In this document: positions 5,260 to 18,676 of the stretch, in pieces
Position numbering within the stretch: position 1 is the first letter of the stretch
Layout of the letters: every line of letters starts with the position of its first letter
Source: a virus
Length of the DNA: 64,000 nucleotides
Virus record (IMG/VR): IMGVR_UViG_3300028284_000006
Location: 1 to 64,000 of that record
Reading direction: 5' to 3' (one strand)
The notes under the pieces: generated by a model
The model's database searches: none
The model's input: only the letters and a program-made list of their open reading frames with translations
What the model was told of the DNA's origin: nothing
Position numbers and translations under genes: made by a program

Positions 5260-5290
5260 TTGTTTTATGCAAAGATATGTATTATATTTG
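5260..5290 (+). promoter_or_regulatory. rightward promoter TTG-N20-TATATTTG
   Basis: TTG at 5260-5262, 20-bp spacer, TATATTTG at 5283-5290: a full Bacteroidota housekeeping-type promoter. The ATG of the winged-helix-like gene starts 5 bp after the -7 element, so the transcript would be leaderless or nearly so. The leftward promoter at 5270-5277 overlaps it. Confidence 0.72.
5270..5277 (-). promoter_or_regulatory. leftward promoter -7 element TATCTTTG
   Basis: Reads TATCTTTGCATAAAA on the minus strand, 16 bp before the ATG of the 94-residue basic protein. It matches the Bacteroidota -7 consensus TAnnTTTG. No TTG lies 17-23 bp upstream. The same 15 bases occur in the promoter at 43215-43222. 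It lies inside the footprint of the rightward promoter at 5260-5290. Confidence 0.65.
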
Positions 5291-5295
5291 TATCT

Positions 5296-5826
5296 ATGAA
5301 AAAGAGAAAGATGCGTAGAAAGTACGAGCGCAAGAATCCTAAGAAAAGTTATACGGGCGGTTTGAGGAAGAATTACAACAAAAAAGCACCAAGCTCAGAT
5401 TACCTTAAATTTTTTAGGGTTGTCAGGTACTGGGCTAAAAGGACCCACGGAGTGGGTCTCGCTGACCTCGAGATTTTACTTTTTTTATACAGCAAAGGGC
5501 TCTTTAAAAGAGCAGATTTTGATGAATTTAGCGAAATTTTCCCTTGGGATCAAGCTAGATTCGAGAAATTACGCAAGGATGGGTGGATTTCTGTTTGGAG
5601 GAAGTATGACGGATACAACGCAGCACTTTACGAACTATCATACAAAGGTAAAAGACTTTGCTTGTCAGTTTACAAGAAACTATCCGGTGAAGAAAAAATA
5701 TCAGAGTCACCAGGGGTGAACCCTATATTCAAAAAAAACCCGCCATACACCGATAAGGTATACAAGCGGGCTATCAAAAAAATGAATAGTTCTACAAAAC
5801 CACCACAACATCCCTCTCAAGAATAA
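5296..5826 (+). CDS. putative winged-helix protein, conserved phage regulator candidate
   Basis: 176 residues from the ATG at 5296; a second in-frame ATG lies at 5311. The first 35 residues are very basic. Residues about 40-120 contain FFRVVRYWAKRTHGVGLADLE, then helices and a beta-wing-like KDGWISVWR...YELSYKGKRL, which looks like a MarR-type winged helix. The C-terminus has NPxFKKNxPYTDKVY. From memory this pattern is conserved in flavobacterial and crAss-like phages. It is the only rightward gene within the leftward block and overlaps the end of groES convergently by 35 bp. Likely a transcription factor or nucleic-acid binder; target not known. Confidence 0.85.
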   Translation: MKKRKMRRKYERKNPKKSYTGGLRKNYNKKAPSSDYLKFFRVVRYWAKRTHGVGLADLEILLFLYSKGLFKRADFDEFSEIFPWDQARFEKLRKDGWISVWRKYDGYNAALYELSYKGKRLCLSVYKKLSGEEKISESPGVNPIFKKNPPYTDKVYKRAIKKMNSSTKPPQHPSQE

Positions 5827-6049
5827 TAGAGTACTGATTCTCATCAATAATCATCTTATGTCCTGCTGACTTGTCGTAGTAGATAATATCTCCTTCCTTA
5901 ATGAACTCAACATTAGTTCCTGGGTTGATAATTTTACCCTTCTTGTATCTGAAGTCCTTCGTGTCCTCACCCGTAAGTAATAGGCCAGAAGCTGTCTTCA
6001 TCTCCTCTACAATCTCTTTTATTATAATGTACTTGTTTATTGCTTTCAT
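5792..6049 (-). CDS. groES: co-chaperonin GroES
   Basis: 85 residues, slightly shorter than cellular GroES (about 97). The GroES pattern is visible: an N-terminal strand (INKYIIIKEI), a mobile-loop-like segment (KTASGLLLTGED), then GKIINPGTN, EGDIIYYDKSAGHKMIIDEN and a terminal IILERDVVVVL. It would cap GroEL during folding of phage proteins. Its start overlaps the groEL stop by one base, so the two are translationally coupled. It is transcribed leftward with groEL from the promoter near 7614-7621. Confidence 0.92.
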   Translation of the reverse strand: MKAINKYIIIKEIVEEMKTASGLLLTGEDTKDFRYKKGKIINPGTNVEFIKEGDIIYYDKSAGHKMIIDENQYSIILERDVVVVL

Positions 6050-7590
6050 TATCTCTTGTATGTTACAATTGCGTTAGTAGTTAGTATCGTTGTTGCAACT
6101 GAGACCGCATTCTTAAGCGCATTCTTGGTTACTTTGGCAGGATCAATAACACCCATCTTGTACATGTTACCATACTCACCTGTCTTCACATTATACCCCT
6201 CGCCGAACTCGTTAATCTTCGCTGGGTATATTTTACCTGCGTTGTCAACAATCTGCTTGAATGGAGACATTAAGGCAAACCTCATAATCTTCTCGTCAAA
6301 CGATTCACCATCAAGTGCATAAGACTCGAATAAAAGTGCAGCTCCACCACCAGGCAAGATACCATCCTCGATTGCAGACCTAACAGCACAAACAGCATCC
6401 TCAACACGGTCGTGTTTCTCTTTCTGCTCAATGTCAGAGTCTCCACCAACAAAGACCACTCCTATACCACCAGATAAACTAGCAATTCTCTCCTTCAAGA
6501 AATCCTTCTCGCTTTTTTGGGTAGACCTGTTGTCCGCCTCCTTAAGCTCCTCAATCCTGTCAGATACAACATCTGTCCTTCCCTCGTCCCTTACAATAAC
6601 AGTCTTGTCAGTAGACACAACTATTTTCTGTGCATGACCAAGGTCCGCCATAGTAATCAAACTAAGGTCGTCACCCGTCGCGTCACTGAAGTACTTCGCG
6701 CCAACAGACATCGCAATGTCAGACATAAGCTCCTTGGTTTTATAACCAAACTGTGGAGGTACAATGTTACAAATCTTTAACCCATTCTTCACAACGTTCA
6801 TACCAAGGGTGTTGATTACGTTGTCAGAACACTTCCCAATGATTAACAGCTTCTTGCCCTGTTGGATAATCGGCTTCAGTATGTTCTCAATACTAAGTAT
6901 GTTGCTAATATCTAAGTCCGTTGCCAATATATAAGCGTCGTCAAGGACGCACTCGTCGTTTTTTTGGTTGTTAATGAACAGCCTACTAGTGAAACCTCTG
7001 TCGATTTTTATTCCGTTCGTTACCTCGAAGTAAGTTCTGTCCGTTTGGCTGTTCTCGACAGTTACGACACCGTCTTTACCAACCTGTTTGTATACGTCAG
7101 CAATTAATAACCCTGTATCTCTATCGTTGTTGGCAGATATAGTTGCAACATCCTTCAATGTTCTACCTGTCACTTTCTTTGCTCTCTTAGACAATTTGTA
7201 AATTACCTGGTCAGCGATTTTATTCATATTACGAGTAAGCTCCGTCACATTAATTGATGGGTTCTCCTTAATTACACGCATACCCTCCAACACAATTGCC
7301 TCTGTTAGAACAATAGCCGTTGTTGTACCGTCACCAGCAGATGTTGCTGTTCGGTCAGCGGCTTCCTTCACCATTCTAACAGCGAGGTTCTCAACAGGAT
7401 CTTGTAAGTTGATAGACTTAGCTACCGTTACACCATCCTTGGTTACCGTTAATCCTTTTGTGTGTGTTTGTGATTCTAGAATTACTGTTTTACCTAGAGG
7501 ACCTAGTGTACTTTTTACAGCTTTAGATATCTTAGTGATACCACTAATAAGTTTGTCTCGACCTTCTTGGTCAAAAAATAAGTCATTCAT
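6049..7590 (-). CDS. groEL: chaperonin GroEL
   Basis: ATP-driven folding chamber. From the ATG at 7590 it has 513 residues (cellular GroEL about 545). Visible signatures: STLGPLGKTVILE, the ATP-binding TSAGDGTTTAIVL, VENSQTDR-type apical region, and DGILPGGGAALL near the C-terminal equatorial domain. The Gly-Gly-Met tail of bacterial GroEL is missing; it ends at TYKR. A GTG at 7614 in frame would add eight residues, but it lies within the -7 promoter element, so the ATG is preferred. First gene after the control region; with groES it probably supports capsid folding. Confidence 0.95.
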   Translation of the reverse strand: MNDLFFDQEGRDKLISGITKISKAVKSTLGPLGKTVILESQTHTKGLTVTKDGVTVAKSINLQDPVENLAVRMVKEAADRTATSAGDGTTTAIVLTEAIVLEGMRVIKENPSINVTELTRNMNKIADQVIYKLSKRAKKVTGRTLKDVATISANNDRDTGLLIADVYKQVGKDGVVTVENSQTDRTYFEVTNGIKIDRGFTSRLFINNQKNDECVLDDAYILATDLDISNILSIENILKPIIQQGKKLLIIGKCSDNVINTLGMNVVKNGLKICNIVPPQFGYKTKELMSDIAMSVGAKYFSDATGDDLSLITMADLGHAQKIVVSTDKTVIVRDEGRTDVVSDRIEELKEADNRSTQKSEKDFLKERIASLSGGIGVVFVGGDSDIEQKEKHDRVEDAVCAVRSAIEDGILPGGGAALLFESYALDGESFDEKIMRFALMSPFKQIVDNAGKIYPAKINEFGEGYNVKTGEYGNMYKMGVIDPAKVTKNALKNAVSVATTILTTNAIVTYKR

Positions 7591-7613
7591 TTGATTAAAT
7601 TTTTTTGATGCCA

Positions 7614-7621
7614 CAAATATA
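7614..7621 (-). promoter_or_regulatory. leftward promoter -7 element TATATTTG for groEL-groES
   Basis: TATATTTG on the minus strand, 23 bp before the groEL ATG at 7590. No TTG is present at the -33 position. A GTCGAC box lies about 28 bp upstream of the -7 element, near where an activator could contact polymerase. Confidence 0.62.
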
Positions 7622-8439
7622 AGAATAATATATTAAAGAAATGACCTGTGTCGACTTTTGAAAAATAAGGGGCAAACCCTATCTATATATAATACATTAT
7701 AATATATATTATTTTTTTTTCTGTAAATACAGAACAAAAGTCGACACCTCGACACATTCCCAATGATAGCAAGGGCTGAGGGCGTGTCGATACCGTGTCG
7801 ACTTTTGATTTCCGTGTCGACTTTTAAGTATACTTGAAAGTAAGCTCTATAAATAACAGGTGAAACGTCAATTGTTTGTAGTTATATTCTTCATCCTTTG
7901 GAAAAAATGAAAAGCCGACACAAGGTCCGACATCGATTCTGTTTACTAGTTCTATAATCATACAGCAAAAGTAAACATATTTTTTTTATTCAGATATATA
8001 CAGCAAATGGGTTATATATACATATGACGCGATCGATCGGCCCAAGAAACCGTTTTTTTTTCGGCACAGGGGGTCTTTTTTTTTCATCATCACTCAGAAT
8101 TTTTGCCTTTTTTATAGGCTCGCGCGCGCGTGTACATCTATTACCACATCAATCTCATTTTACACATCTACACAATACACGTACAAAGGTACATACTCAC
8201 ACACAATCCCAGGCAACCACACATTAACATATGTAAACACAAAAACAGAGCTCAAATTAACTTGTGATAAGATAAAATTGTGTACATACATACAAGGGAA
8301 GGATAGCCCTTTATATATTTATTGAAGGATCAAATTTTTCATGCAAAAAAGTTTATCTCTTAAAACTCTGGTTTCCAGCGATTTGATTGAAATATGGATA
8401 CGAAATGTGTATTTTTTTAAAAAAAGTTTACATTTTATT
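7622..8439. other. non-coding divergent control region
   Basis: About 0.8 kb without a credible gene between leftward groEL and the rightward early genes. Contents in order: GTCGAC box near 7648-7659; AT-rich 7681-7730; GTCGAC array 7736-7825; a 10-bp palindrome AAGTATACTT at 7826-7835; degenerate GCCGACA and TCCGACA boxes near 7914-7931; two T9-type tracts near 8053-8084; an alternating (CG)5 run at 8121-8130; a G-poor C/A-rich stretch about 8131-8240; and a hairpin AAGGG/CCCTT at 8294-8311. Candidate origin and transcription control region; this is inference from content and position. Confidence 0.6.
7736..7825. repeat. GTCGAC-box inverted-repeat arm, left copy
   Basis: Ungapped 90-bp match, about 80 percent by eye, to the reverse complement of 15941-16030. 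The arm is itself near-palindromic: AAAGTCGACACCTCGACAC at one side faces GTGTCGATACCGTGTCGAC and a further GTGTCGACTT at the other, around a centre with AAGGGCT. The end with AAAGTCGACACC points toward groEL. Each box is conserved while the centre has drifted, which suggests protein-binding sites under selection. Confidence 0.85.
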
Positions 8440-8469
8440 TTGTCAAGTCGTTCAAATAGATTTACTTTG
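8440..8469 (+). promoter_or_regulatory. early rightward promoter TTG-N20-TACTTTG
   Basis: TTG at 8440-8442, 20-bp spacer, TACTTTG at 8463-8469, followed by C. One base shorter than TAnnTTTG but with the same spacing as the two other rightward promoters. It precedes the early gene run that begins at 8512. Confidence 0.6.
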
Positions 8470-8511
8470 CCTCGTCGGAGGGAATTAACCCACGCACTAA
8501 AACAATATAAT

Positions 8512-8625
8512 ATGAAAATTTCAGAAGAATCAAAGTTTTTTATAATGTTTGTTGTGATAACTGCTTTATTTTGGACACTAATAATTTGGGGATTGAATAC
8601 ATCTACTCCATACAATCCAATATAA
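8512..8625 (+). CDS. small membrane protein, 37 aa
   Basis: Begins MKISEESKFF, then one hydrophobic segment (IMFVVITALFWTLIIWGL, about residues 11-28) and a short polar tail. The first gene after the promoter at 8440-8469. The frame is open further upstream, but that part lies before the promoter. Probably an early inner-membrane peptide; role unknown. Confidence 0.6.
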   Translation: MKISEESKFFIMFVVITALFWTLIIWGLNTSTPYNPI

Positions 8626-8636
8626 AAAAAATAATC

Positions 8637-8843
8637 ATGAAACAATCAATCACAAAACGAGCGTACATCAAACTTATTGAAACGTATGTAATGAACTGTT
8701 ATGACATCAGCGATATGTTAAATCCTACTTACAAAAATATCGATGCACAGAAATGTCTTGATATAGCTAACCAAATCAACGAAGAGGTTAACGGAGTTGA
8801 ATATTGGGAGTATTCAGAAAAACTAACTCTTGAAAATTTATAG
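8637..8843 (+). CDS. hypothetical early protein, 68 aa
   Basis: ATG at 8637, 11 bp after the previous stop. Soluble, mostly helical and acidic toward the C-terminus (QINEEVNGVEYWEYSEKL). No family recognised. An upstream extension would overlap the small membrane gene and is less likely. It belongs to the dense series of very short early genes. Confidence 0.65.
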   Translation: MKQSITKRAYIKLIETYVMNCYDISDMLNPTYKNIDAQKCLDIANQINEEVNGVEYWEYSEKLTLENL

Positions 8844-8845
8844 TC

Positions 8846-8944
8846 ATGAAAAAATCAACCAAGGAAACAATCACAAACATTTTATTTTTAACCGCGTTAT
8901 TCACAGCATTTTATCATGTGCTGTGGTTCGCCTCAAAATTTTAA
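8846..8944 (+). CDS. small membrane protein, 32 aa
   Basis: MKKSTKETIT followed by one hydrophobic segment (NILFLTALFTAFYHVLWF) and a three-residue tail. Starts 2 bp after the previous stop. Too short to assign; layout suggests an inner-membrane peptide. Confidence 0.5.
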   Translation: MKKSTKETITNILFLTALFTAFYHVLWFASKF

Positions 8945-8947
8945 ACC

Positions 8948-9064
8948 ATGAAAAAAATCATCATTATCATTATCATTTCAATAGGAATACAATCATGCGG
9001 TAGCACAGGATACTGCACAACAAAATCAACTAACCGTGGCGGAGGCTACTACGTAAATAGATAA
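8948..9064 (+). CDS. putative small lipoprotein, 38 aa
   Basis: Starts MKK followed by eight-plus Ile/Ser residues and then IQSCGST, a plausible lipobox with the lipidated Cys near residue 17. The mature peptide would be only about 22 residues (CGSTGYCTTKSTNRGGGYYV...), Gly- and Tyr-rich with a second Cys. Starts 3 bp after the previous stop. A tiny early lipoprotein could alter the envelope, for example in superinfection exclusion; that is speculation. Confidence 0.65.
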   Translation: MKKIIIIIIISIGIQSCGSTGYCTTKSTNRGGGYYVNR

Positions 9065-9068
9065 AATT

Positions 9069-9209
9069 ATGTTTAAAAAAGAAACAATTGAGGACAATAG
9101 CTTGTTAGTATTAGCGCTTGAAACATTGCTAGAGCAATTAAAAGATGGAGATGGCGAGCAAGTAAAGATTGATAGAGTAGAGTCTTTAATCTCAAAAATA
9201 AATAGTTAA
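9069..9209 (+). CDS. hypothetical early protein, 46 aa
   Basis: ATG at 9069 in the AAAATTATG start context. Helical and acidic (LLVLALETLLEQLKDGDGEQ). No family recognised. Followed by the hairpin at 9218-9231. Confidence 0.6.
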   Translation: MFKKETIEDNSLLVLALETLLEQLKDGDGEQVKIDRVESLISKINS

Positions 9210-9217
9210 CTGACGAA

Positions 9218-9242
9218 ACGCCTAACGGCGTCTTAACTTAAA
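9218..9242 (+). promoter_or_regulatory. hairpin plus TAACTTAAA element before 9254 gene
   Basis: Stem ACGCC/GGCGT with loop TAAC (9218-9231), then TAACTTAAA at 9234-9242, 11 bp before the next ATG. A similar hairpin followed by TAACTTAAA precedes the gene at 17476. Possibly an mRNA processing or translation element; no U-tract, so not a classic terminator. Confidence 0.45.
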
Positions 9243-9253
9243 AATGTAAAATT

Positions 9254-9490
9254 ATGGCTTATAACGGATGGAGTAACTACGCAACATGGAAGGTAGCATT
9301 AGAAGTATTTGATGGAACAGAGTTTGAAGAAACGGTTGAACCATCATTCTTAGAAGAGTTAGCAGAGGAAATAATCTTCGGAGATACAGACAGAAACACA
9401 TTTGTTTCAAACTACGCACAATCCTTCTTAGAAGGTGTTGACTACTTAGAAATTGCAGAGGTTATAAACAGAGAAATATTATCAAACTAA
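9254..9490 (+). CDS. DUF7249-like phage protein, 78 aa
   Basis: Starts MAYNGWSNYATWKVALEVFD; the motif GWxNYxTWxVxL is the hallmark, from memory, of a widespread small phage and plasmid family (DUF7249). The rest is acidic and helical (EPSFLEELAEEIIF...). Function of the family is unknown; these proteins are usually early-expressed accessory proteins. Start chosen for the AAAATTATGG context and the motif at the very N-terminus. Confidence 0.85.
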   Translation: MAYNGWSNYATWKVALEVFDGTEFEETVEPSFLEELAEEIIFGDTDRNTFVSNYAQSFLEGVDYLEIAEVINREILSN

Positions 9491-9494
9491 AATT

Positions 9495-9692
9495 ATGAAA
9501 GCATTTATACAAAAAGAAATTTCGTTGATAAATTCAAACGAGAATCACTACGGTAGTGACGAGTCAATAGACAACCAAAACACAGTGTTTGACTATTTCA
9601 TAGACAACAATATTGTTGACCAAGATTGGTTCGATGACAGGCTAAGATTTAGCGATGTAGAAAGATTAACAGCATTAATGAACTTAATATGA
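9495..9692 (+). CDS. hypothetical early protein, 65 aa
   Basis: ATG at 9495 in AAAATTATG context, 4 bp after the previous stop. Acidic; contains QDWFDDRLRFSDVERLTALM. No family recognised. The stop codon overlaps the next start region. Confidence 0.65.
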   Translation: MKAFIQKEISLINSNENHYGSDESIDNQNTVFDYFIDNNIVDQDWFDDRLRFSDVERLTALMNLI

Positions 9693-9829
9693 TGGAGAAA
9701 ACAATATCATACAAGAATCAGTACGGAAACTACAAGGTAGTGACACGTACATTTAAGGACGAAAAACATTTCGACAATTGGTACTACTTTATGAGTGGTA
9801 GAGGGTACAAAATTATATCAGTAAACTAA
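9692..9829 (+). CDS. hypothetical early protein, 45 aa
   Basis: Two ATGs in frame, at 9689 and 9692; both overlap the previous stop. The product MEKTISYKNQYGNYKVVTRT...DNWYYFMSGRGYKIISVN is basic and aromatic. The FxDxxHFxNW...GYKI pattern resembles short phage proteins of unknown function. Confidence 0.6.
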   Translation: MEKTISYKNQYGNYKVVTRTFKDEKHFDNWYYFMSGRGYKIISVN

Positions 9830-9842
9830 AAAAACAAAAATT

Positions 9843-10064
9843 ATGGCAAGATTTATATTAGATGTTATGACGGATGATTGGATTAGGGTTCTCGATGTTA
9901 TTGAGAGAGACAAATTTCTTTCAAGCGAGGTCACATCAATAAGATGTATTGACGAAACAAACGACAGTCAGTTTTATTCATGGGATAAAGACACGACACC
10001 AATGATGAACGCATTAAGTGAAAAGCAATTAGAAAACGACAGAGAAATTCTGTCAAAATATTAG
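9843..10064 (+). CDS. hypothetical early protein, 73 aa
   Basis: ATG at 9843 in AAAAATTATGG context. Starts MARFILDVMTDDW and is acidic throughout. No family recognised. Part of the closely packed early gene run. Confidence 0.65.
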   Translation: MARFILDVMTDDWIRVLDVIERDKFLSSEVTSIRCIDETNDSQFYSWDKDTTPMMNALSEKQLENDREILSKY

Positions 10065-10070
10065 AACATT

Positions 10071-10301
10071 ATGGACAAAAAAATATTAGTAAACGACAAT
10101 AATTTTACAGAGTGCGTAAATGAAATTGCTACACAAATTACAGAAACGTATTTCGGATTAGAAACTTGGGAAATTGAAGATGGACATAGGTCATTTACAT
10201 TTACAGATGAAGCACAGTCTTTTTACAATGACAGTTTTAGTGAAATTGAATCATTAATTAACAACACGTTAAACGTGTGGAACAAAAAATCAGAATTATG
10301 A
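10071..10301 (+). CDS. hypothetical early protein, 76 aa
   Basis: Acidic (many Glu, Asp, Thr); ends NTLNVWNKKSEL. Its TGA overlaps the ATG of the next gene (ATGA at 10298-10301). No family recognised. Confidence 0.65.
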   Translation: MDKKILVNDNNFTECVNEIATQITETYFGLETWEIEDGHRSFTFTDEAQSFYNDSFSEIESLINNTLNVWNKKSEL

Positions 10302-10435
10302 AAGTAAAAAATGAAAGCCTAACAAATAATTTAAAATTTTGGAGGGAAAGCCTAAAGAAAGCAATGATTAAAGGCGATTTAAATTATGCAATGCATTGCG
10401 ACACCATTATTAATAAATTAAAACAAGAATTATGA
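10298..10435 (+). CDS. hypothetical early protein, 45 aa, with shared LKFWRESLKKAM segment
   Basis: MKVKNESLTNN then LKFWRESLKKAM and a helical tail ending INKLKQEL. The 37 bp coding for the shared segment (10331-10367) recur exactly inside the next gene (10765-10801), in the same frame. ATGA overlaps link it to both neighbours. Function unknown. Confidence 0.6.
   Translation: MKVKNESLTNNLKFWRESLKKAMIKGDLNYAMHCDTIINKLKQEL
10331..10367 (+). repeat. 37-bp exact direct repeat, copy 1
   Basis: Identical to 10765-10801; both copies encode LKFWRESLKKAM in frame in two neighbouring early genes, 434 bp apart. The identity at synonymous sites implies recent duplication or gene conversion. Confidence 0.85.
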
Positions 10436-10980
10436 GACAAGAAGTAAAAGACTACATTGAGGAAGGTAACGCAGTTGAGGTTGCTAGAGGTATATATGCT
10501 ACGCAAGATAGTATGTACAGAAATAGATTGACTGAAAAGGATTTGGAGCAGTACATGATAGACGAGTATGGGCTTAGTGAGATTCAAAATAATAAAATAT
10601 CTGACGATAAGTTAATGAAGTTAATCCCAAAAATGCCTAAAGGCTATGTTGGTAAAAATACAGGAATTAAAAAGTATACAATCTCAACACCTGATGGTAA
10701 AGATATAATTCTAACACAGAGTAAAGATAAGAAAAATTGGTCTTATGAACCATCTAATGTTGCATTAAAATTTTGGAGGGAAAGCCTAAAGAAAGCAATG
10801 AGTAAAAATTATTCATGGAATGAAGAAACCATAAGCTACTTTCAATTCACAAGTTCTTACATATCGGATGAAGACCTTTATGAAAAAATAAAAGAGTTCG
10901 TAGAAAATGACTGTGCAATAGAAGAGGGCGAGACTGAAGAAGATTTAGTAAATGACCTTTACAAAAAAATAAAATTATGA
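10432..10980 (+). CDS. hypothetical early protein, 182 aa, with shared LKFWRESLKKAM segment
   Basis: Starts MRQEVKDYIEEGNAVEVARG at an ATGA overlap. Helical N-terminal part, a central strand region (KKYTISTPDGKDIILTQSKD), the shared LKFWRESLKKAM at about residues 112-123, and an acidic C-terminus. It may be a mosaic in which the middle helix was copied from, or to, the gene at 10298. Not recognised. Confidence 0.7.
   Translation: MRQEVKDYIEEGNAVEVARGIYATQDSMYRNRLTEKDLEQYMIDEYGLSEIQNNKISDDKLMKLIPKMPKGYVGKNTGIKKYTISTPDGKDIILTQSKDKKNWSYEPSNVALKFWRESLKKAMSKNYSWNEETISYFQFTSSYISDEDLYEKIKEFVENDCAIEEGETEEDLVNDLYKKIKL
10765..10801 (+). repeat. 37-bp exact direct repeat, copy 2
   Basis: Second copy of the 10331-10367 segment, inside the 182-residue gene. 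Confidence 0.85.
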
Positions 10981-11375
10981 GAAAAGAGTACAATAATAGA
11001 TATGGTGATGTATATACCTTCACCGAATTAGAAAATGGTAATATTCAATGGAGTGGTAATTTTGAATACACTCGATTTGGTTGGCCAAACGATTACACCA
11101 AAGCTTGGGAGAAGTTTCAAGAAGAATATGGTGGGTTAGATTACGAAGAATTTTTAGGTAGTATTCATACCTATGATGAAGAAACAAACCAATATGTATT
11201 TGCAGACCTTCTACCATTGGTTACTTCAAAAACTAATGTAATCAATATGGTAGACCCAAGTGGTGGCCCATATATTACGGAAGGAACTGATATGAAAAAT
11301 TTTGGATTAAAAGGAATAGTGAAAGAGTTTAAATCGAATAAAGATGGATATGAGATATTGGTTCAAAAAAAGTGA
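10977..11375 (+). CDS. hypothetical early protein, 132 aa
   Basis: ATGA overlap with the previous gene. Aromatic-rich N-terminal half (NIQWSGNFEYTRFGWPND, then KAWEKFQEEYGG) that is probably a small alpha/beta fold. No motif tied to a function. Confidence 0.7.
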   Translation: MRKEYNNRYGDVYTFTELENGNIQWSGNFEYTRFGWPNDYTKAWEKFQEEYGGLDYEEFLGSIHTYDEETNQYVFADLLPLVTSKTNVINMVDPSGGPYITEGTDMKNFGLKGIVKEFKSNKDGYEILVQKK

Positions 11376-11419
11376 GGTAGAACTTAGAAGTAATTGTAAA
11401 ATCTGAAACTGAATAAATT

Positions 11420-11701
11420 ATGAAAGTACAAATTAGTCAAAGATATGTTTACCACAAAGTAGGTACAATAGAAATAGAAATAAATAAGGATGATTATGAA
11501 AAGTATGATAGCTTAGATGAATATTTAACAGAAAATGAGTATTTATGGGAGGAAAAAATAGACGAAGCAACATCAAATTCAGACCTTGAATTCGGTTTTG
11601 GTTTAGGATATTACGCTAATGAATACTACTTTAATGAGGAAGAAAGGGAAACTGAAACGCGTTACGATTGCAAAGAGTTACAAACAGGTGGGCATCTTTA
11701 A
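11420..11701 (+). CDS. hypothetical early protein, 93 aa
   Basis: ATG at 11420 in AAATTATG context. Strands at the N-terminus (MKVQISQRYVYHKVGTIEIE) then a strongly acidic, Tyr-rich remainder. Very acidic small early proteins can mimic DNA, but nothing specific supports that here. Confidence 0.65.
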   Translation: MKVQISQRYVYHKVGTIEIEINKDDYEKYDSLDEYLTENEYLWEEKIDEATSNSDLEFGFGLGYYANEYYFNEEERETETRYDCKELQTGGHL

Positions 11702-11713
11702 AAAATAAAAAAT

Positions 11714-11998
11714 ATGAAATCAGAACATAGTAATTTTTGGGGTATAGATGAAGCATCTATTGATAATTTATTAAAAGATGGAGAATTAGATTTAGGCAAG
11801 TGGTATTTTTATTACAACGATACCATGAAAGAATGGGAGGCTACAATGAGCGGTACATATACTCATGTATTTAAAAATATAGATGACTTATTGCAAAGAA
11901 AGAATGAAGTTGATTTTTACGAACACAATCAAGAACTTAGCGACAATAGAGGAGAAGAAGTGATAACGAATTCTAAAGGTCAAAAAAGAATATATTAA
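11714..11998 (+). CDS. hypothetical early protein, 94 aa
   Basis: Starts MKSEHSNFWGIDEASIDNLL, contains WYFYYNDTMKEWEATMSG and ends GQKRIY. Small soluble protein, not recognised. 13 bp after the previous stop, 14 bp before the methyltransferase start. Confidence 0.65.
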   Translation: MKSEHSNFWGIDEASIDNLLKDGELDLGKWYFYYNDTMKEWEATMSGTYTHVFKNIDDLLQRKNEVDFYEHNQELSDNRGEEVITNSKGQKRIY

Positions 11999-12012
11999 CT
12001 AAAAAAAAAGAT

Positions 12013-12687
12013 ATGAGAATATTAGTAGCGTGTGAGGAAAGTCAATCCATCACAAAAGAATTAAGAGAGTTGGGTCACGAAGCATTTAGTTGTGACCTAT
12101 TACCTTGTAGCGGTGGACACCCCGAGTGGCACTACCAACAAGATGTTTTTGAAGTAATAGACAAAGGTTGGGACATGATGATAGCACACCCTCCATGCAC
12201 ATACTTAGCTGTAAGCGGTGCGAGGTGGATGTACCATCCCGATGACAAGGATTTACCTACAGACGAAAGGAGGCCACATCCAAAGCATTTAGATAGAAAA
12301 AAATTACAGGATGATGCTTTGGATTTTGTTCAAAGACTCATGGATGCACCTATAGATAGGATAGCGATAGAGAATCCTGTATCTGTGATTAGCAGTAGGA
12401 TCAAAAAACCAAACCAAATTGTTCATCCGTATATGTTCGGAGATAAGGCAAGTAAGGGTACTTGTTTATGGCTAAAGAACTTGCCAAAATTAGTGCCTAC
12501 TGATTTAGTAGACAAGGGAGAGTTCTTTGAATTCACGAGCAAGAAAGGTGTGAAGAAGAGACAACCAATGTGGTATTACAAGGCTTTAAGTAAAGCAAAA
12601 ACACCATCAGAAAGAAGAACATTAAGAAGTAAAACGTTCCAAGGTATGGCAAAAGCAATGGCTAATCAATGGACAAAAAATCAATAG
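12013..12687 (+). CDS. DNA cytosine-5 methyltransferase-like protein 1
   Basis: 224 residues. Rossmann SAM-binding start MRILVACEESQSITKELREL, catalytic motif IV AHPPCTYLA (Pro-Cys at about 60-62) and motif VI IAIENP (about 117-122). These are the key motifs of C5 cytosine methyltransferases, here in a compact form without an obvious target-recognition domain. Probably methylates phage DNA to resist host restriction. A second enzyme of the same class lies at 14242-14901. No restriction endonuclease partner is visible. Confidence 0.85.
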   Translation: MRILVACEESQSITKELRELGHEAFSCDLLPCSGGHPEWHYQQDVFEVIDKGWDMMIAHPPCTYLAVSGARWMYHPDDKDLPTDERRPHPKHLDRKKLQDDALDFVQRLMDAPIDRIAIENPVSVISSRIKKPNQIVHPYMFGDKASKGTCLWLKNLPKLVPTDLVDKGEFFEFTSKKGVKKRQPMWYYKALSKAKTPSERRTLRSKTFQGMAKAMANQWTKNQ

Positions 12688-12692
12688 AAATT

Positions 12693-12962
12693 ATGGGAGC
12701 AACAAGTATTCATTACACGGCAAGTAAAAAACATTACAAGTCATCAAAAGAGGCTTATCAAGGCCTAAGACAAGAAGAACTATACGAGCATGGACATGAC
12801 CCATACAGCGGTACGATCGCAACGTGTACATTAGAGGGTAAAATATCAGAACCTAAGAATGAAGACGAGTATGAGGAAGCATTGGACAGAATACACAAAA
12901 GGGAGTGTAAGTATTACGAGACAGACAAGGAGTATGTGTTCATTGGATGGGCAAGTTGTTAG
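12693..12962 (+). CDS. hypothetical protein, 89 aa
   Basis: Start at ATG 12693 chosen for the AAATTATGG context just after the methyltransferase stop; an in-frame ATG at 12669 would overlap that gene by 19 bp. Contains HYTASKKHYKSSKEAY and ends EYVFIGWASC. Such short proteins with a central THY/acidic pattern occur near methyltransferases in phages, but I do not recognise a family. Confidence 0.65.
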   Translation: MGATSIHYTASKKHYKSSKEAYQGLRQEELYEHGHDPYSGTIATCTLEGKISEPKNEDEYEEALDRIHKRECKYYETDKEYVFIGWASC

Positions 12963-12968
12963 ATAAAT

Positions 12969-13205
12969 ATGGAAATAAAACACGTAGCATTGACTTGGAC
13001 AACCGATGATGTCCGCAATGCATTAAAGCACAGAACAAGTAAGGAGATTTTAGAGTTTGAAAAAGAAACAGGATCTTCAGATAATGACTTAGCCAATTGG
13101 TTAGATTGTATGTTTGATGATAATCAAAATGAAATTTGTAGTTTTATTAATGAACTTATTGATGATGCAATTACAATCACTACTTACAAATGCAGACAAG
13201 TATAA
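12969..13205 (+). CDS. hypothetical protein, 78 aa
   Basis: Starts MEIKHVALTWTTDDVRNALK and is acidic and helical afterwards. 6 bp after the previous stop. Not recognised. Confidence 0.65.
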   Translation: MEIKHVALTWTTDDVRNALKHRTSKEILEFEKETGSSDNDLANWLDCMFDDNQNEICSFINELIDDAITITTYKCRQV

Positions 13206-13221
13206 GAAAAACAAAAGAAAA

Positions 13222-13809
13222 ATGACAAAAAAAACAAAAACAACTAACAAACCAGCTTCAAATGAAGCCCAATCTCTAGGGGAAGCTCCAGCACCGGACA
13301 ACAGTTCAAAAATTAACCACCAACAAATGCTAAGTGATGCCTATTGGCAAATCATTGAAAGTCTCGAATGGGGGAAGGATGGAGATTACAAACGAACTCA
13401 AAATGAGTTTAGACGAATGAAAATATCTGGATTAGAAAAATCCATTATTGCAGACTTCGTTAGAGAAAAAGTAAGAGAATTAAATGTAGATTTTAAACAA
13501 CATTGGTTAGCAAATGACTTCGGATGGGTATCCGATGACAGTTGGTGGGATTTACGAGCAGAGGTTGTTGGTCGAGGAAAAGAATTTTACGAGAACATCT
13601 CAGTTTATAAATTAGGTGAAATGGCAGCAAACCTAGACTACAGAGAAAACTTTCAGTATACATTCTCAGATTTTCAACCACTAAATCATTCTAATGGTTC
13701 GCGTGGTAAACTTACCGATGGTGTCTATTCCAAGCTGTACAATGGTAAAGTATCTAAGGTTGTAGCAGTAAACTACAATAACAAAACCTTTAACACCAAA
13801 AAGAGTTAG
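13222..13809 (+). CDS. hypothetical protein, 195 aa
   Basis: The ATG at 13222 is preferred: upstream codons in frame overlap the previous gene. A Lys/Thr/Pro-rich disordered N-terminus (about 30 residues) precedes a helical, Trp-rich domain (DAYWQIIESLEWGKDGDY, HWLANDFGWVSDDSWWDL). No family recognised; longest unassigned protein of the early region. Confidence 0.7.
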   Translation: MTKKTKTTNKPASNEAQSLGEAPAPDNSSKINHQQMLSDAYWQIIESLEWGKDGDYKRTQNEFRRMKISGLEKSIIADFVREKVRELNVDFKQHWLANDFGWVSDDSWWDLRAEVVGRGKEFYENISVYKLGEMAANLDYRENFQYTFSDFQPLNHSNGSRGKLTDGVYSKLYNGKVSKVVAVNYNNKTFNTKKS

Positions 13810-13837
13810 TAAATTGCACTAAATTAAAATATAAATT

Positions 13838-13927
13838 ATGAAAACAATATTATCAATAGTGCTGTGGATAGCTGTAGCGAGAGTATTCATGTGGTTAGGA
13901 ACTAAAATATTTAAAGACAATGACTAA
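13838..13927 (+). CDS. small membrane protein, 29 aa
   Basis: MKTILSIVLWIAVARVFMWL is a single hydrophobic segment, followed by GTKIFKDND. ATAAATTATG start context; overlaps the next gene start by 8 bp. Existence plausible, role unknown. Confidence 0.5.
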   Translation: MKTILSIVLWIAVARVFMWLGTKIFKDND

Positions 13928-14138
13928 GACAGAGCAAGCAAAGGTGTTACTACACCAAAACGGATATTACATCGACAACCTGTGGAGTGTTGATGACATA
14001 CAACAGAACTTTTACTGCACAGAACACGAGGCGTTCGAGGTATTGGAGGATGTTTTCAACAGCGACTACATCAACGAAGCGATTGCTGGAGAGTTAGTGA
14101 GAGTGGCAGAGGAACGTGATTTAAGACTTAGGGACTGA
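13920..14138 (+). CDS. conserved hypothetical phage protein, 72 aa
   Basis: Starts MTKTEQAKVLLHQNGYYIDN, followed by LWSVDDIQQNFYCTEHEAFE, a pattern I associate with small flavobacterial phage proteins of unknown function. Helical with an HTH-like spacing (VDDIQQNFYCTEHEAFEVL), so DNA binding is possible but unproven. Confidence 0.7.
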   Translation: MTKTEQAKVLLHQNGYYIDNLWSVDDIQQNFYCTEHEAFEVLEDVFNSDYINEAIAGELVRVAEERDLRLRD

Positions 14139-14157
14139 TGACAGACAAGGAGAAGGA

Positions 14158-14235
14158 ATGAACCGAAAGATGAACCGTAAAAATAGTTGTTTGTAAGGGT
14201 TTTCTATAAAAATGAACCGTAAAATGAACCGTAAA
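14158..14235 (+). repeat. four copies of ATGAACCGTAAA-type 12-mer
   Basis: Copies at 14158-14169 (with one change), 14170-14181, 14212-14223 and 14224-14235, in two tandem pairs separated by 30 bp. The second pair reads MNRKMNRK in frame with the downstream methyltransferase, so it could extend its N-terminus or act as a leader or operator. Confidence 0.75.
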
Positions 14236-14241
14236 AAGAAT

Positions 14242-14901
14242 ATGAATATTTTAGAATTATTTAGTGGAAGCAGAAGCATAGGAAAGGTAGGGTCTGATAG
14301 GAGTCATAATGTATTTTCATCAGACTTTCATGACTTTAAAGACACGGATTACGTTGTAGATATATTGGAGTTTGATATAAGTAAAGTTCCTTTTATACCC
14401 GACATGATATGGGCAAGCCCACCTTGTGAGTCATTTAGTGTGGCCTCTATTGGTAGGCATTGGATAAAGGGAGAGGTGTTCAGTCCTAAGACAGAAAACG
14501 CAAAGCAAGGTGTTAAGATCCTAATGAAGACAATGGAGATTATACAGAAATTCAAGGAAATTAATCCCAACCTTATATGGTACGTAGAAAACCCGAGAGG
14601 TAAGATGAGGAAGTCTCCTCACTGGGCCAATGTAGAGCATAAATTAAACACCGTAACGTATTGTCAGTATGGAGACGATAGAATGAAGCCAACAGATATT
14701 TGGAACAACAACAGCAATTGGTCTTCAAGGGATATGTGTAAGAACGGAATGCCATGCCATATATCAGCGCCCAGGGGTTCATCAACAGGGACACAAGGTA
14801 GGTCATCTTACTATGACAGAAGTAAAATACCTCAACAATTATGTGAGGAAATCATTAAATCAACAGAGAAAAATTTTGGTCAGACCAATTATAATCAGTA
14901 A
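14242..14901 (+). CDS. DNA cytosine-5 methyltransferase-like protein 2
   Basis: 219 residues from the ATG at 14242, which starts exactly at MNILELFSGSRSIGK, the SAM-binding motif I of C5 methyltransferases. An upstream ATG at 14212 would add MNRKMNRKKN. Catalytic WASPPCESFS at about 58-67 and WYVENPRG at about 113-120 are motifs IV and VI. The later YCQYGDDRMKPTDIW is typical of a phage subfamily. No separate target-recognition domain is obvious. Likely modifies phage DNA against restriction, together with the enzyme at 12013. Confidence 0.88.
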   Translation: MNILELFSGSRSIGKVGSDRSHNVFSSDFHDFKDTDYVVDILEFDISKVPFIPDMIWASPPCESFSVASIGRHWIKGEVFSPKTENAKQGVKILMKTMEIIQKFKEINPNLIWYVENPRGKMRKSPHWANVEHKLNTVTYCQYGDDRMKPTDIWNNNSNWSSRDMCKNGMPCHISAPRGSSTGTQGRSSYYDRSKIPQQLCEEIIKSTEKNFGQTNYNQ

Positions 14902-14914
14902 ATTTGTTAACGAT

Positions 14915-15139
14915 ATGGAAAACTACATTAAAGATTTTACGCAATGGTTGAGAAGTGTGAACGATGACTTTTTAGGTTGTTCACTCTCAACAAAGAATGA
15001 CATGACTGCCTTCATGAAGGAGGTAAATGAGATGGATGTTGATCCATTGGTGCTAGACAGGTTCTTGCATGATGGGTTTGACACTAATATGAAGACATTT
15101 AAAATGTACTTAAAGATATACTATGCACAACAAAAGTAG
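14915..15139 (+). CDS. hypothetical protein, 74 aa
   Basis: ATG at 14915, 13 bp after the methyltransferase stop; an earlier in-frame ATG at 14813 lies inside that gene. Helical, begins MENYIKDFTQWLRSVNDDFL. Not recognised. Confidence 0.6.
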   Translation: MENYIKDFTQWLRSVNDDFLGCSLSTKNDMTAFMKEVNEMDVDPLVLDRFLHDGFDTNMKTFKMYLKIYYAQQK

Positions 15140-15299
15140 GAACTACACGAAACAGACACCTTGGAAAAACAAGATAGGTGTATTTAAGGCTCATGGTGGA
15201 TGGATTGTAAGGGTTTGGGAAGACGGATACATGAAGACAATAAGTAGGCACAGTACAGAGAAGGAGGCATTAATTAAATTTAACGAAAAGAATGGATAG
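15123..15299 (+). CDS. small basic protein, 58 aa
   Basis: MHNKSRNYTKQTPWKNKIGV, then FKAHGGWIVRVWEDG and STEKEALIKFNEKNG. The strand-turn-helix pattern with a Trp-containing hairpin resembles the small AP2-like or integrase N-terminal fold, as in the 16065 gene, but the match is weak. Overlaps the previous gene by 17 bp. Confidence 0.5.
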   Translation: MHNKSRNYTKQTPWKNKIGVFKAHGGWIVRVWEDGYMKTISRHSTEKEALIKFNEKNG

Positions 15300-15420
15300 G
15301 TGTAAGTATTTTTTAGACAACAAACTTAATTGTATAACAGGTTGGAAAAGTGAAAGGACTAACCCTAGACGAAAAAAGAACCAAGATAAAATATTATTAA
15401 CAGAAGAAGACAATGAGTAG
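15292..15420 (+). CDS. small Cys-containing protein, 42 aa
   Basis: MDRCKYFLDNKLNCITGWKS then a basic stretch (NPRRKKNQDK) and an acidic end. Two Cys ten residues apart. ATGGATAG overlap with the previous stop. Not recognised; modest coding support. Confidence 0.45.
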   Translation: MDRCKYFLDNKLNCITGWKSERTNPRRKKNQDKILLTEEDNE

Positions 15421-15589
15421 TAAGGAACACTTTAACGAGTGGATGAAACAAATTAAAAATATATACTACTCTGATCACCATCAGATGACAGAGGCGTATA
15501 AAAAAATCCAAGAAAATGATAAATCAGTTAGTAGAATTAAAAGTATTATTAGACAGAGAACCGAGAACCAACAGGAGAGATTGGAATAA
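15413..15589 (+). CDS. small helical protein, 58 aa
   Basis: MSSKEHFNEWMKQIKNIYYS, helical and basic to the C-terminus. Overlaps the previous gene by 8 bp, and the next by 74 bp in another frame, which is unusual. Either both are translated or only one of the pair is real. Confidence 0.42.
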   Translation: MSSKEHFNEWMKQIKNIYYSDHHQMTEAYKKIQENDKSVSRIKSIIRQRTENQQERLE

Positions 15590-15944
15590 GGTTGTAGGAA
15601 AAGAACTATCAGACCTTTTAGTTAAGGAAGGTTATGTAAAAAAGATTGGCATCACTAAGGGTGTAAAATGGTTCTGGAATGCTGAGAACCCATCCTATGA
15701 AATGGTTAACACCTTAACTCAATCACTAACTCCTCAAGAAGAACCAAATTTTTTAGAAATATTCAATGACACAGATGAAACAACTTTCGTTGATGTTCTA
15801 AGATCTAGAAAAATAAGTTTAAGTATTGGCAACGGTGTTAAGATTTTTTTCGGTGACGACTCTATGATTGTAAGAAGGGGAGAGAAGGAGATGATTGTCA
15901 AAACTCCAGGAGAATTTAGTAATTTACTTAATTTTTTGACATAA
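15516..15944 (+). CDS. hypothetical protein, 142 aa, last of the early run
   Basis: N-terminal half (VELKVLLDREPRTNRRDWNK, then LLVKEGYVKKIGITKGVKWF) looks like a small winged helix. The second half is beta-rich. The stop lies at the inner end of the right GTCGAC arm. It might be a DNA-binding regulator; that is inference from pattern only. Confidence 0.68.
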   Translation: MINQLVELKVLLDREPRTNRRDWNKVVGKELSDLLVKEGYVKKIGITKGVKWFWNAENPSYEMVNTLTQSLTPQEEPNFLEIFNDTDETTFVDVLRSRKISLSIGNGVKIFFGDDSMIVRRGEKEMIVKTPGEFSNLLNFLT

Positions 15945-16030
15945 GTCGACACCAAAAGAAAAAGTCGACACGGTATCGACACGTATCTAGCCCTTACTAC
16001 TACTAGAATTGTGTCGAGGTGTCGACTTTA
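15941..16030. repeat. GTCGAC-box inverted-repeat arm, right copy
   Basis: Mirror image of 7736-7825. On the plus strand it reads TAAGTCGACACC, then AAGTCGACACGGTATCGACAC, a centre with AGCCCTTA, then GTGTCGAGGTGTCGACTTT. The outer end faces the AP2-like gene 35 bp away. Its inner end overlaps the stop of the preceding gene by 4 bp. Confidence 0.85.
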
Positions 16031-16064
16031 TACCTTAATTTTAAGAAAAAATAAAATATATTAT

Positions 16065-16265
16065 ATGACAAAATATAAAGGAGTATATAAAGGAAGAAAC
16101 AGGAACGGTAAACGTTATTGGATAGGAAGGTTTACAAAAGATAAAGTAACACACAATTATGGTATGTACGAGACCGAAAGAGAGTGCGCTGTGGCTCATG
16201 ACATCTATGTGTTGAAGAAAGGAATTGACAGGCGAACTAATATTTTAAAGAAAAAACTTGTTTAG
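16065..16265 (+). CDS. AP2-like DNA-binding domain protein, 66 aa
   Basis: A stand-alone AP2/ERF-like domain. Pattern: YKGVYKGRNRNGKRYWIGRF, TKDKVTHNYGMYETERECAV, AHDIYVLKKG. These correspond to the three-stranded sheet and the helix with the conserved AA/AxD segment. AP2 domains in phages usually accompany homing endonucleases; here there is no HNH motif, so it could be a regulator. It is the first gene after the right GTCGAC arm. ATG at 16065 chosen because upstream sequence is the repeat. Confidence 0.82.
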   Translation: MTKYKGVYKGRNRNGKRYWIGRFTKDKVTHNYGMYETERECAVAHDIYVLKKGIDRRTNILKKKLV

Positions 16266-16410: not shown

Positions 16411-16737
16411 ATGTTTAAGTCTGTAAAGATTGACAACGCAGTCATCTACAAAGGTGTTAAGGTTGTTAAAGATGATGATGGTATTAGAGTATACTCAACA
16501 GAAACAGATTTCTACACAGACATGACTTATTCTTTTGTTATTGGAACATTTGAAGAAAGTTTGATTGCTTACCTAAAGAGGAAGTACATGAACAAGCTTT
16601 CGGTTATAGAAGATAGTATACAGAAGGAGATAAATGGTAAAAGGAATCACAAAAGATACAACTACCTAAAGAAATTAAGAGAAACCTACTTAAATAAATA
16701 CAATGAAATCAATACTAAAGAAATTACAGGAAGATAA
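16411..16737 (+). CDS. hypothetical protein, 108 aa
   Basis: ATG at 16411, 1 bp after the previous stop; the frame is open to 16381, but that part overlaps the 38-residue gene. Strands (VIYKGVKVVKDDDGIRVYST) then a helical, Lys-rich C-terminus. Not recognised. Overlaps the exonuclease start by 35 bp. Confidence 0.62.
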   Translation: MFKSVKIDNAVIYKGVKVVKDDDGIRVYSTETDFYTDMTYSFVIGTFEESLIAYLKRKYMNKLSVIEDSIQKEINGKRNHKRYNYLKKLRETYLNKYNEINTKEITGR

Positions 16738-17425
16738 GCACTACTACGGTGCCTACGGCAAGAAATATTTATCAAACTCGAACATTGGTGTGTTACTAAC
16801 CAATCCAAGAGACTTTGGTAAGCCAGGTAGAGAAACTTTACCAATGGTACAGGGTAGGTATTTCCATGTGTCTATGATTGAAGAGCATAAGAAGGATGAT
16901 TTCGAGATAGTTGACGCATCAACAAGGAACACAAAGTTTTACAAAGAACAAGCACAAGGAAAATTGTTATTGCTAAGGAAAGAAGCAGATCAATTGGACA
17001 GAGCGATTAACGAGATGAAGAACAATGAAGAGTTTGCATCTGAGATATACGCTGAAGGGACTCAGTACGAGGTTCCTATGATTGGAGAGTTCTTCGGTGT
17101 TGAGTTCAAAGGTAAGGCTGACATTATAACTAAGGATAAGATTATAGACATCAAAACATCATCATCTATTGCTAAGTTTAGAACGAGTGCAAGGATGTAC
17201 AACTACGATAGTCAAGCATACATATACAGTTCAATGTTTAACCTACCATTTGAATTCTTTGTGATTGACAAGGAAAGTTTACAGATGAAGAGATTCACGT
17301 GTAGTGATGAGTTCCTGGAAAGAGGTAGAGATAAAGTATTGAAAGCAGTACAAGTATACAAGAGATTTTTCACTGAAGCTTCTACGGAAGATGTGATGAA
17401 TTATGTAGCAAACGAAATATTATAA
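16703..17425 (+). CDS. PD-(D/E)XK exonuclease, RecB/Cas4-like
   Basis: 240 residues. Conserved core: GKADIITKDKIIDIKTSS at about 137-154 gives the D...DxK metal site (Asp140, Asp149, Lys151). YDSQAYIYSSMF at about 168-179 is the QxxxY motif of RecB-family nucleases. Likely a phage exonuclease for recombination or DNA processing. It precedes a putative single-strand binding protein, a usual pairing. Translation probably starts at ATG 16703 inside the upstream gene. Confidence 0.88.
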   Translation: MKSILKKLQEDKHYYGAYGKKYLSNSNIGVLLTNPRDFGKPGRETLPMVQGRYFHVSMIEEHKKDDFEIVDASTRNTKFYKEQAQGKLLLLRKEADQLDRAINEMKNNEEFASEIYAEGTQYEVPMIGEFFGVEFKGKADIITKDKIIDIKTSSSIAKFRTSARMYNYDSQAYIYSSMFNLPFEFFVIDKESLQMKRFTCSDEFLERGRDKVLKAVQVYKRFFTEASTEDVMNYVANEIL

Positions 17426-17475: not shown

Positions 17476-18129
17476 ATGGCAAGAATTAGCCACCAACAAG
17501 AGTCGAACAAAAGTTCAAACCCAACCACTAAGTACTTAGAGTGGAAGTCAAATGACAAGTCATTCAGTTACTATGACAAGTCTAAAGGAGAAAACGTTAA
17601 GGTAGAGTTACCTTTCAAGTTTGTTTTCTTACAACACTACCATACCGTGAAAGGATGGAGCGATGCTTCAGGTAGTGGTATTTATTCTAATGAGGTTTAC
17701 TTCATTGGTAGTGAGCCAATGTCTGTTAAGTCATTCAAGGGAGGAGTTATTGCTGAGGGTCTTTACAAGGACATCAAGCCTACGATCACAAATGCCGGAG
17801 GTAAGTACCACCGTTCTGTTTATGTTATGTTAGAGGATGGTTCATTGGCAAACATCTCTTTCAAGGGAGCAGTAGTTCGTGAGTGGTCAATCTTTATGGA
17901 GAACAACGCTAATAACTGTGATGTAAATTGGGTAGAGGTTAATACTGCTGTTGAGCAGAAGAAAGGAAGTGTTAAGTACACTACACCTGACTTTACTTTA
18001 GGAGCAAGTATCTCTAAGGCTGATGCAGTTAAGGCTGATAAGGTTGCCGGAGAGTTTCAAGAATACATTTCTTCTTACTTAAAGAAGGATGAGGTTATTG
18101 AATCAGAGCCTGTTGAAATAGACTTCTAG
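17476..18129 (+). CDS. putative ssDNA-binding protein, 217 aa
   Basis: Begins MARISHQQESNKSSNPTTKY. The core has KYLEWKSNDKSFSYYD, LPFKFVFLQHYHTVKGWSD, SGSGIYSNEV and SFKGGVIAEGLYKDIK, and the C-terminus is acidic (EPVEIDF). From memory this pattern marks a conserved replication-module protein of flavobacterial and crAss-like phages, thought to bind single-stranded DNA; the acidic tail fits. It follows the exonuclease and is itself followed by a strong terminator, suggesting high, separate expression. Confidence 0.72.
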   Translation: MARISHQQESNKSSNPTTKYLEWKSNDKSFSYYDKSKGENVKVELPFKFVFLQHYHTVKGWSDASGSGIYSNEVYFIGSEPMSVKSFKGGVIAEGLYKDIKPTITNAGGKYHRSVYVMLEDGSLANISFKGAVVREWSIFMENNANNCDVNWVEVNTAVEQKKGSVKYTTPDFTLGASISKADAVKADKVAGEFQEYISSYLKKDEVIESEPVEIDF

Positions 18130-18184: not shown

Positions 18185-18676
18185 ATGCAAAAATTAAATG
18201 AAATACTAGATTCAATCTCAGCGCGAACAGGATTGGATATTAGAAAAAATACTAGGCAGATTGAGTATGTTATGGCTAGGAACATATACTACAAGATAGC
18301 TAAAGACGATTTAAGATTGGGTACTTTAAGCGCTGTTGGTAAACCATTAAAAAAAGACCACACTACAGTATTGCATGGATTAAAGAACTTCCATCAAATT
18401 GAGAGCTACTACCCAAGAATGTACAATGATTACCTTTTTGTGAAGGATCTTTTTGATGAAAATGAGGACAAGGAATCTTCTTACGAGAAGTTAATAGCGG
18501 TTGATAATTCTTTAACAAAATTAAAGAAGGAACACAAAGAATTACAGGATAAATATTACAAGTTATTATTGGATAACGATTCAAGCTACATTGTAAATAA
18601 GATGAATGAATTGAGTGTAGAGAATCAAGAAATTTTTATCATGAGAGTTAAGGCAATCTTAAACATGATGAAGTAA
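18185..18676 (+). CDS. DnaA domain IV-like DNA-binding protein
   Basis: 163 residues. QIEYVMARNIYYKIAKDDLR, then LSAVGKPLKKDHTTVLHGLK matches the origin-binding domain of DnaA (helices with ARxIxxY...TLxxIGxxxxxDHTTVxH). The AAA+ ATPase domain is absent. The rest is a long coiled-coil-like helix. It could bind a phage origin and recruit the primase-helicase encoded immediately downstream (stop and next start adjoin at 18676). ATG at 18185 chosen; the 10 upstream residues in frame fall in the terminator region. Confidence 0.85.
   Translation: MQKLNEILDSISARTGLDIRKNTRQIEYVMARNIYYKIAKDDLRLGTLSAVGKPLKKDHTTVLHGLKNFHQIESYYPRMYNDYLFVKDLFDENEDKESSYEKLIAVDNSLTKLKKEHKELQDKYYKLLLDNDSSYIVNKMNELSVENQEIFIMRVKAILNMMK

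Follow-up and report, generated by a model that had tools for sequence, protein, structure and literature searches.

Two box-bearing, AT-rich arms around the early region of a GroEL-encoding virus: a candidate pair of replication-origin-type elements

Bacillus phage SPP1 carries two origins, oriL and oriR, about 13 kb apart, which have repeats and an AT-rich unwinding element, and a single phage origin-binding protein, gp38 (G38P), binds both sites (PMC6316719). In Escherichia coli oriC, clusters of DnaA boxes in opposed orientations occur together with an IHF site and an AT-rich region that melts (PMC10380432). In the iteron origins of pSC101 and R6K gamma, repeats, an IHF site and an AT-rich region work jointly, and the AT-rich region of R6K gamma is bounded by DnaA sites (PMC5043065). 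Here, we describe two inverted arms that carry short boxes beside AT-rich cores and bracket an early region of 8 kb in a 64,000-nucleotide stretch, hereafter the window, of the 64,698-bp virus record IMGVR_UViG_3300028284_000006. Our reading, of moderate confidence, is that the two arms form a matched pair of elements of the replication-origin type, similar to oriC and the SPP1 origins. Like oriL and oriR, they are two distant sites with repeats beside an AT-rich region, one of them near the replication genes, and this arrangement of two sites in one genome was found both in the window and in related viruses. Unlike in SPP1, the boxes are 7-8 bp long, flank the AT core in both orientations at spacings of 8, 9 or 11 bp and often enclose an IHF-like site; a DnaA domain-IV or AP2-domain protein is the candidate binder, the arms are 8 kb apart, and the box words diversify between lineages. 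The candidate binder family shares DnaA domain IV with the oriC system; unlike oriC, the element is present in two copies per genome and its box sequence is not conserved across the family. In contrast to pSC101 and R6K gamma, facing box pairs flank the AT core on both sides, and no Rep-type initiator was identified. No account of such elements was found in the open-licence literature.

A repeat search of the whole window placed the arms at 7712-7823 and 15943-16054, an inverted pair of 112 nt with 78% complementarity, while the second-best inverted pair reached 45 nt and 71%. Self-BLAST of the 64 kb stretched the match to 7688-7823 and 15943-16077 (E = 7e-23) and returned one other minus-strand match (E = 7e-5). 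The inverted pair is far beyond chance. An earlier note, made by inspection of the letters, had described a pair of about 90 bp, and over that part (7736-7825 against 15941-16030) 72 of 90 positions agreed. Its impression that the boxes are nearly invariant and the spacers have drifted was borne out, with 35 of 35 box positions identical between the arms and 37 of 55 of the remaining positions. The boxes lay in both orientations around an AAGGGCT centre in each arm, and the outer sides faced groEL on the left and the AP2-domain gene on the right, again as described. Within the window, exact boxes were confined to the two arms in a box scan. The element exceeds the 90 bp first noticed; its left side also has an AT core and an extra box at 7648 (Table 1).

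To compare the element across viruses, viral contigs were scanned for the pattern, and close equivalents were found before groEL in two loci (L017 and L018; loci are numbered with the prefix L) and before the replication genes in a third (L014). Exonuclease and GroEL alignments were then used as seeds and yielded about 120 further loci, mostly metagenomic fragments, and several of the counts given below include near-redundant loci. Arrays stood ahead of groEL, the replication genes or both in most of the family (about 100 related viral contigs), at regular positions relative to groEL and the primase gene. Both arms recurred at the same two places, and the single arm in unrelated positions that the earlier note had named as a possible refutation was not the pattern seen. 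Tandem RTGTYRA pairs occurred 145 times in the relatives, compared with 6 expected from Markov sequences. Their spacing, in 85 pairs, was 8, 9 or 11 bp (33, 18 and 31 pairs) and only once each 10, 12 or 13 bp, and facing boxes were 78-93 bp apart. The same layout was present in MW202828.1 (Podoviridae sp. ctfjg026, 60,850 bp, circular). Judged from these comparisons, the element is old and widespread. A nucleotide search of the first 24 kb against a phage collection gave no match. The host of this marine phage is likely a member of the Bacteroidota, because the cultured phages related to it at the level of the primase mostly infect flavobacteria. Cultured Flavobacterium 'elemo' phages share groEL and have a primase domain related to that of the window; the 74 bp from groEL to the next gene leave no space for an array.

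Both AT cores are among the sites of the window that melt most readily. In a ranking by nearest-neighbour energy, the left core contains its most meltable 50-mer (7679-7728, z = 4.38) and the right core the third most meltable (16027-16076, z = 3.80), so that by computed meltability the arms have the AT-rich unwinding element of DnaA/IHF-type origins. Among the relatives, 51 of 61 box-bearing arms fell within the top three 300-bp meltability bins of their own locus, compared with 4 of 21 boxless upstream regions, a rank that is partly a product of AT-rich intergenic DNA. The exact IHF consensus WATCAANNNNTTR lay between the box groups in 14 of 54 arms (2.7 expected). A tighter spacer motif, written only after the data had been seen, was found in 31 of 69 (0.31 expected). 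The AAGGGCT centre of the window's clade is a variant, specific to that clade, of the broader TGATWATCA..AGTTA / WATCAANNNNTTR spacer.

Box words differ between lineages and agree between arms. The window's clade uses GTGTCGA, with GTGTTGA in its member L103; other words in the family are ATGTTGA, RTGTTAA, GTGTCAA and ATGTCGA (the last in L068, for example), and two strongly shifted words were found, GTGACG (L065/L080) and ATTCCAA (L057/L072/L084/L085). Across 21 genomes, the left and right arms agreed in their words with a mean cosine of 0.311, compared with 0.069 after permutation (reached in 0 of 5,000 permutations); kinship was not corrected for in this test, but in the ATTCCAA and GTGACG lineages both arms had shifted together. 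Box words that change in both arms together suggest a matched pair of replication start or control sites. The two arms of the window share one box word, as in the other genomes, and a common binder is the simplest inference. A second ATTCCAA-type origin in L059 was considered and dropped as an artefact of AT-rich sequence. Separately, GTGTCGA/GTGTCGC box arrays were seen in contigs seemingly unrelated by gene content (L009, L010, L013 and L019-L021), and inverted tandem GTGTCGAG pairs about 150 bp apart in L011, L015 and L016, with GC-rich surroundings in L011.

To find candidate binders, open reading frames (ORFs) of 15 genomes were clustered, and the DnaA domain-IV family PF08299 was the sole cluster that each of the 13 array-bearing genomes had and that the two arrayless genomes did not both have. 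The family has two forms, a short one of about 100 amino acids encoded just upstream of the exonuclease gene and a long one of 140-190 amino acids. The short form is DnaA domain IV by profile and by fold; its AlphaFold2 model (predicted local distance difference test score, pLDDT, 92.6) best matched the PDB entries 3pvp, 8btg and 1j1v at a TM score of about 0.78, all of which are DnaA domain IV on DNA. Outside the window's clade, about 52 of the 57 loci that encode the short form, redundant loci included, also had boxes in the right arm, and the arrayless clade L033/L039/L044/L050 yielded no short form. The recognition helix started with HSTII or HSSxx in company with most TGTYRA boxes, with HNTIM or HNTVM in the ATTCCAA lineage and with HSNIL in the GTGACG lineage. 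These changes align to positions 435, 436, 438 and 439 of E. coli DnaA, for which base-specific contacts have been reported at 432-435 and 438-439 (PMC5043019). The link between helix and box is a correlation across two shifts on the tree and not a simple code. Within the window's clade, the DNA-binding proteins encoded near the right arm in each of the seven loci were the long DnaA-domain protein and the AP2-domain protein, and both are candidate box binders there. The window's long form matched PF08299 at an E value of 7.7e-8, a match that passes the cut-off, and is 28-32% identical among clade members, compared with 51-79% for the exonuclease. The AP2-domain protein adjoined the right arm in 7 of 7 clade loci at 38-49% identity; its model (pLDDT 77) has the three strands and helix of solved AP2 domains, while the window sequence alone gave no Pfam match. 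The open-licence literature yielded no target or job for stand-alone phage DnaA domain-IV proteins. As a side observation, the gene for the long DnaA-domain protein ranks with the most diverged ones in a replication cassette that is well conserved elsewhere, and a second short ORF (15123-15299, plus strand) weakly matches the HNH-endonuclease family PHROG 99, as the AP2-domain protein does.

We infer that the arms bind protein, open and fire as origins, an oriL before groEL and an oriR before the replication genes. Each would consist of a short array of 7-8-bp boxes (GTGTCGA in the window) beside an easily melted AT segment, and in many lineages a site for an architectural protein, IHF or HU, would separate the box groups. 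A DNA-binding protein of the phage would bind the boxes of both arms and bend and open the AT core, and the phage primase-helicase would load on the opened core. In the wider family the short, stand-alone DnaA domain-IV protein is the most likely binder, and in the window's clade this role may fall to the long DnaA-domain or the AP2-domain protein. Boxes that face a meltable core, an architectural site, a binder of origin-binding fold and a place beside the primase operon fit such an origin. Since an operon begins immediately downstream of each arm, timing of transcription of the flanking operons may be a further role of this complex. The interpretation in the earlier note is in part upheld: its 'paired operators or an origin system' fits the constancy of the two places, the common box word, the fixed geometry, the AT core and the IHF-like site in many groups; the recombination sites that it offered as the alternative are not supported (see below). 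A broader reading is rather doubtful as a whole: each genome of a large family of GroEL-encoding Bacteroidota phages would have two origins, and stand-alone DnaA domain-IV proteins that evolve fast (AP2 in one clade) would read them, with origin and reader switching specificity together and replication mutually exclusive between competing phages. The loci lay out the likely target, geometry and natural specificity variants of stand-alone DnaA domain-IV proteins across many genomes. Paired arms with matched words are a natural experiment in how a DNA-binding helix and its site evolve together, and possibly a case of phage-specific origins.

Several findings weigh against the origin interpretation. 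Both arms are placed directly upstream of operons, as operators would be. The window spacer is degenerate (TGATAGCAAGGGCTGAG on the left; TATCTAGCCCTTA, with one mismatch, on the right), neither arm contains a canonical DnaA box (TTWTNCACA), and the phage DnaA-like proteins have no AAA+ domain, the part that opens oriC; the last two are departures from oriC. GC skew did not change at the right arm; skew was judged uninformative as origin evidence here because it tracks gene direction. Among the candidate binders, the short form was not found in the window's clade even with relaxed cut-offs. The helix of the long form varies (DHTTVLH, NHATVIH, THATVIN) although the boxes remain GTGTCGA, so the long form is not clearly the binder. 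Furthermore, ordinary boxes go with a strongly divergent helix (TRQNV and similar) in the L048/L054/L075/L087 clade, and L035/L036/L041/L046/L051 have the short protein with no clear right array.

Control of the flanking operons by the same complexes comes close behind the origin interpretation, and both may be true. As an explanation of its own, a phage regulator bound to the boxes of both arms would jointly activate, or else repress, the groEL/late and replication operons, with the AT core as a promoter or as a region that loops between operator pairs, which we consider possible but tentative. The arms are directly 5' of the two operons, often after a terminator-like upstream gene end (judged by eye), a host-type -7 element (TAnnTTTG, by eye) follows the left arm before groEL in nearly all relatives, and the constant 78-93 bp between facing box pairs would suit looping. 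DnaA-type proteins can also act as transcription factors. However, no TAnnTTTG stood out in those right arms that were inspected, the cores are the melting extremes described above, and the likely binder has an origin-binding fold. Read from the A-rich/T-rich polarity of its core, the right arm runs opposite to the left one in the window's clade, L034/L037/L101 and L048/L054/L075/L087, and the two are direct in L031/L032, L045, L060/L068/L071/L077/L079 and L093. The direct-arm clades rule out inverted placement as a functional requirement, and a polarity relative to the downstream gene that is opposite between clades is unlike a core promoter and would be more easily tolerated by an origin.

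Improbable, in our view, is a division in which a single arm works as the origin, while its partner, as a fork barrier or secondary site for the same protein, triggers the switch to concatemer replication. SPP1 gp38 at oriR is thought to stall forks from oriL (PMC3485210, PMC6316719), the genome encodes an exonuclease VIII-like protein, and the right arm is a reduced copy in the L034/L037/L101 and L057/L085 clades, but both arms keep their AT cores in most clades. Dispersed operators of the stoperator type were rejected: in mycobacteriophages, a phage protein with group-dependent specificity binds stoperators, which are short and phage-specific boxes (PMC9283540, PMC6550527); stoperators are scattered over the genome, whereas the window's exact boxes are concentrated at the two arms.

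A role of the arms as inverted recombination sites, by which the early region of 8 kb would be flipped or moved, is very improbable and close to refuted: inverted repeats do bracket a variable gene block in the window, but relatives have direct arms, no inverted gene block was found among 36 loci with both anchors (groEL and exonuclease on opposite strands in 36/36, and 29/29 inter-arm homologues on the exonuclease strand), no recombinase was found among the early genes searched, and the arms have not recently been exchanged, because they are only ~76-78% identical. An invertible DNA module was likewise rejected, as the arms are not always inverted and the segment was not seen in both orientations.

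Table 1. Positions in the window of the elements of the two arms and of the neighbouring genes.
Feature	Position	Strand	Basis
Bacteroidota-type -7 promoter element TATATTTG ahead of groEL, just outside left arm	7614..7621	-	motif
Outer left box GTGTCGAC, groEL side of AT core	7648..7655	+	box scan
Left AT core, 79% AT	7660..7735	.	composition and meltability
Left tandem box pair GTGTCGAG-GTGTCGAC, 8-bp spacing, facing AT core	7740..7755	-	box scan
Left spacer ATGATAGCAAGGGCTGAG, degenerate version of relatives' IHF-like spacer	7762..7779	.	comparison with relatives
Left distal boxes GTGTCGAT 7784, GTGTCGAC 7795, GTGTCGAC 7814; spacing 11 bp, 19 bp	7784..7821	+	box scan
Right distal boxes GTGTCGAC 15945-15952, GTGTCGAC 15964-15971, GTGTCGAT 15975-15982	15945..15982	-	box scan
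Right spacer with AGCCCTT; IHF consensus with one mismatch TATCTAGCCCTTA	15983..16010	.	motif scan
Right tandem box pair GTGTCGAG-GTGTCGAC facing AT core	16011..16026	+	box scan
Right AT core, overlapping AP2 gene start	16027..16080	.	meltability
Stand-alone AP2-domain protein, 66 amino acids	16065..16265	+	fold match, synteny
Exonuclease VIII-like protein, right-arm synteny anchor	16703..17425	+	profile searches
DnaA domain-IV protein, long form (PF08299)	18185..18676	+	profile match
Primase/helicase-like replication protein (BT4734-like_N, DUF5906, sub-threshold PriCT_1)	18676..21102	+	profile searches
Phage groEL, left-arm synteny anchor	6049..7614	-	profile searches

The window encodes GroEL, with a GroES-sized gene beside it, an exonuclease, a primase, a terminase, a portal protein and tail fibre proteins. 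Opposite groES lies a small ORF (5260-5826, plus strand) with no Pfam match, which is kept beside groEL in almost every relative; in MW202828.1 the ORF at the corresponding position bears the annotation 'repressor protein'. Between the arms, a non-coding divergent gap (7962-8340) contains long T runs, GATCGATCGG and CGCGCGCGCG, and a CACACA-rich stretch seems to occupy the equivalent place in L017. A direct repeat (10331-10372 and 10765-10806, 434 bp apart) has 41 of 42 bases identical and extends into adjacent small ORFs. Finally, the related phage L059 carries a perfect 31-bp inverted repeat whose copies lie far apart, at 6452-6482 and 18086-18116.

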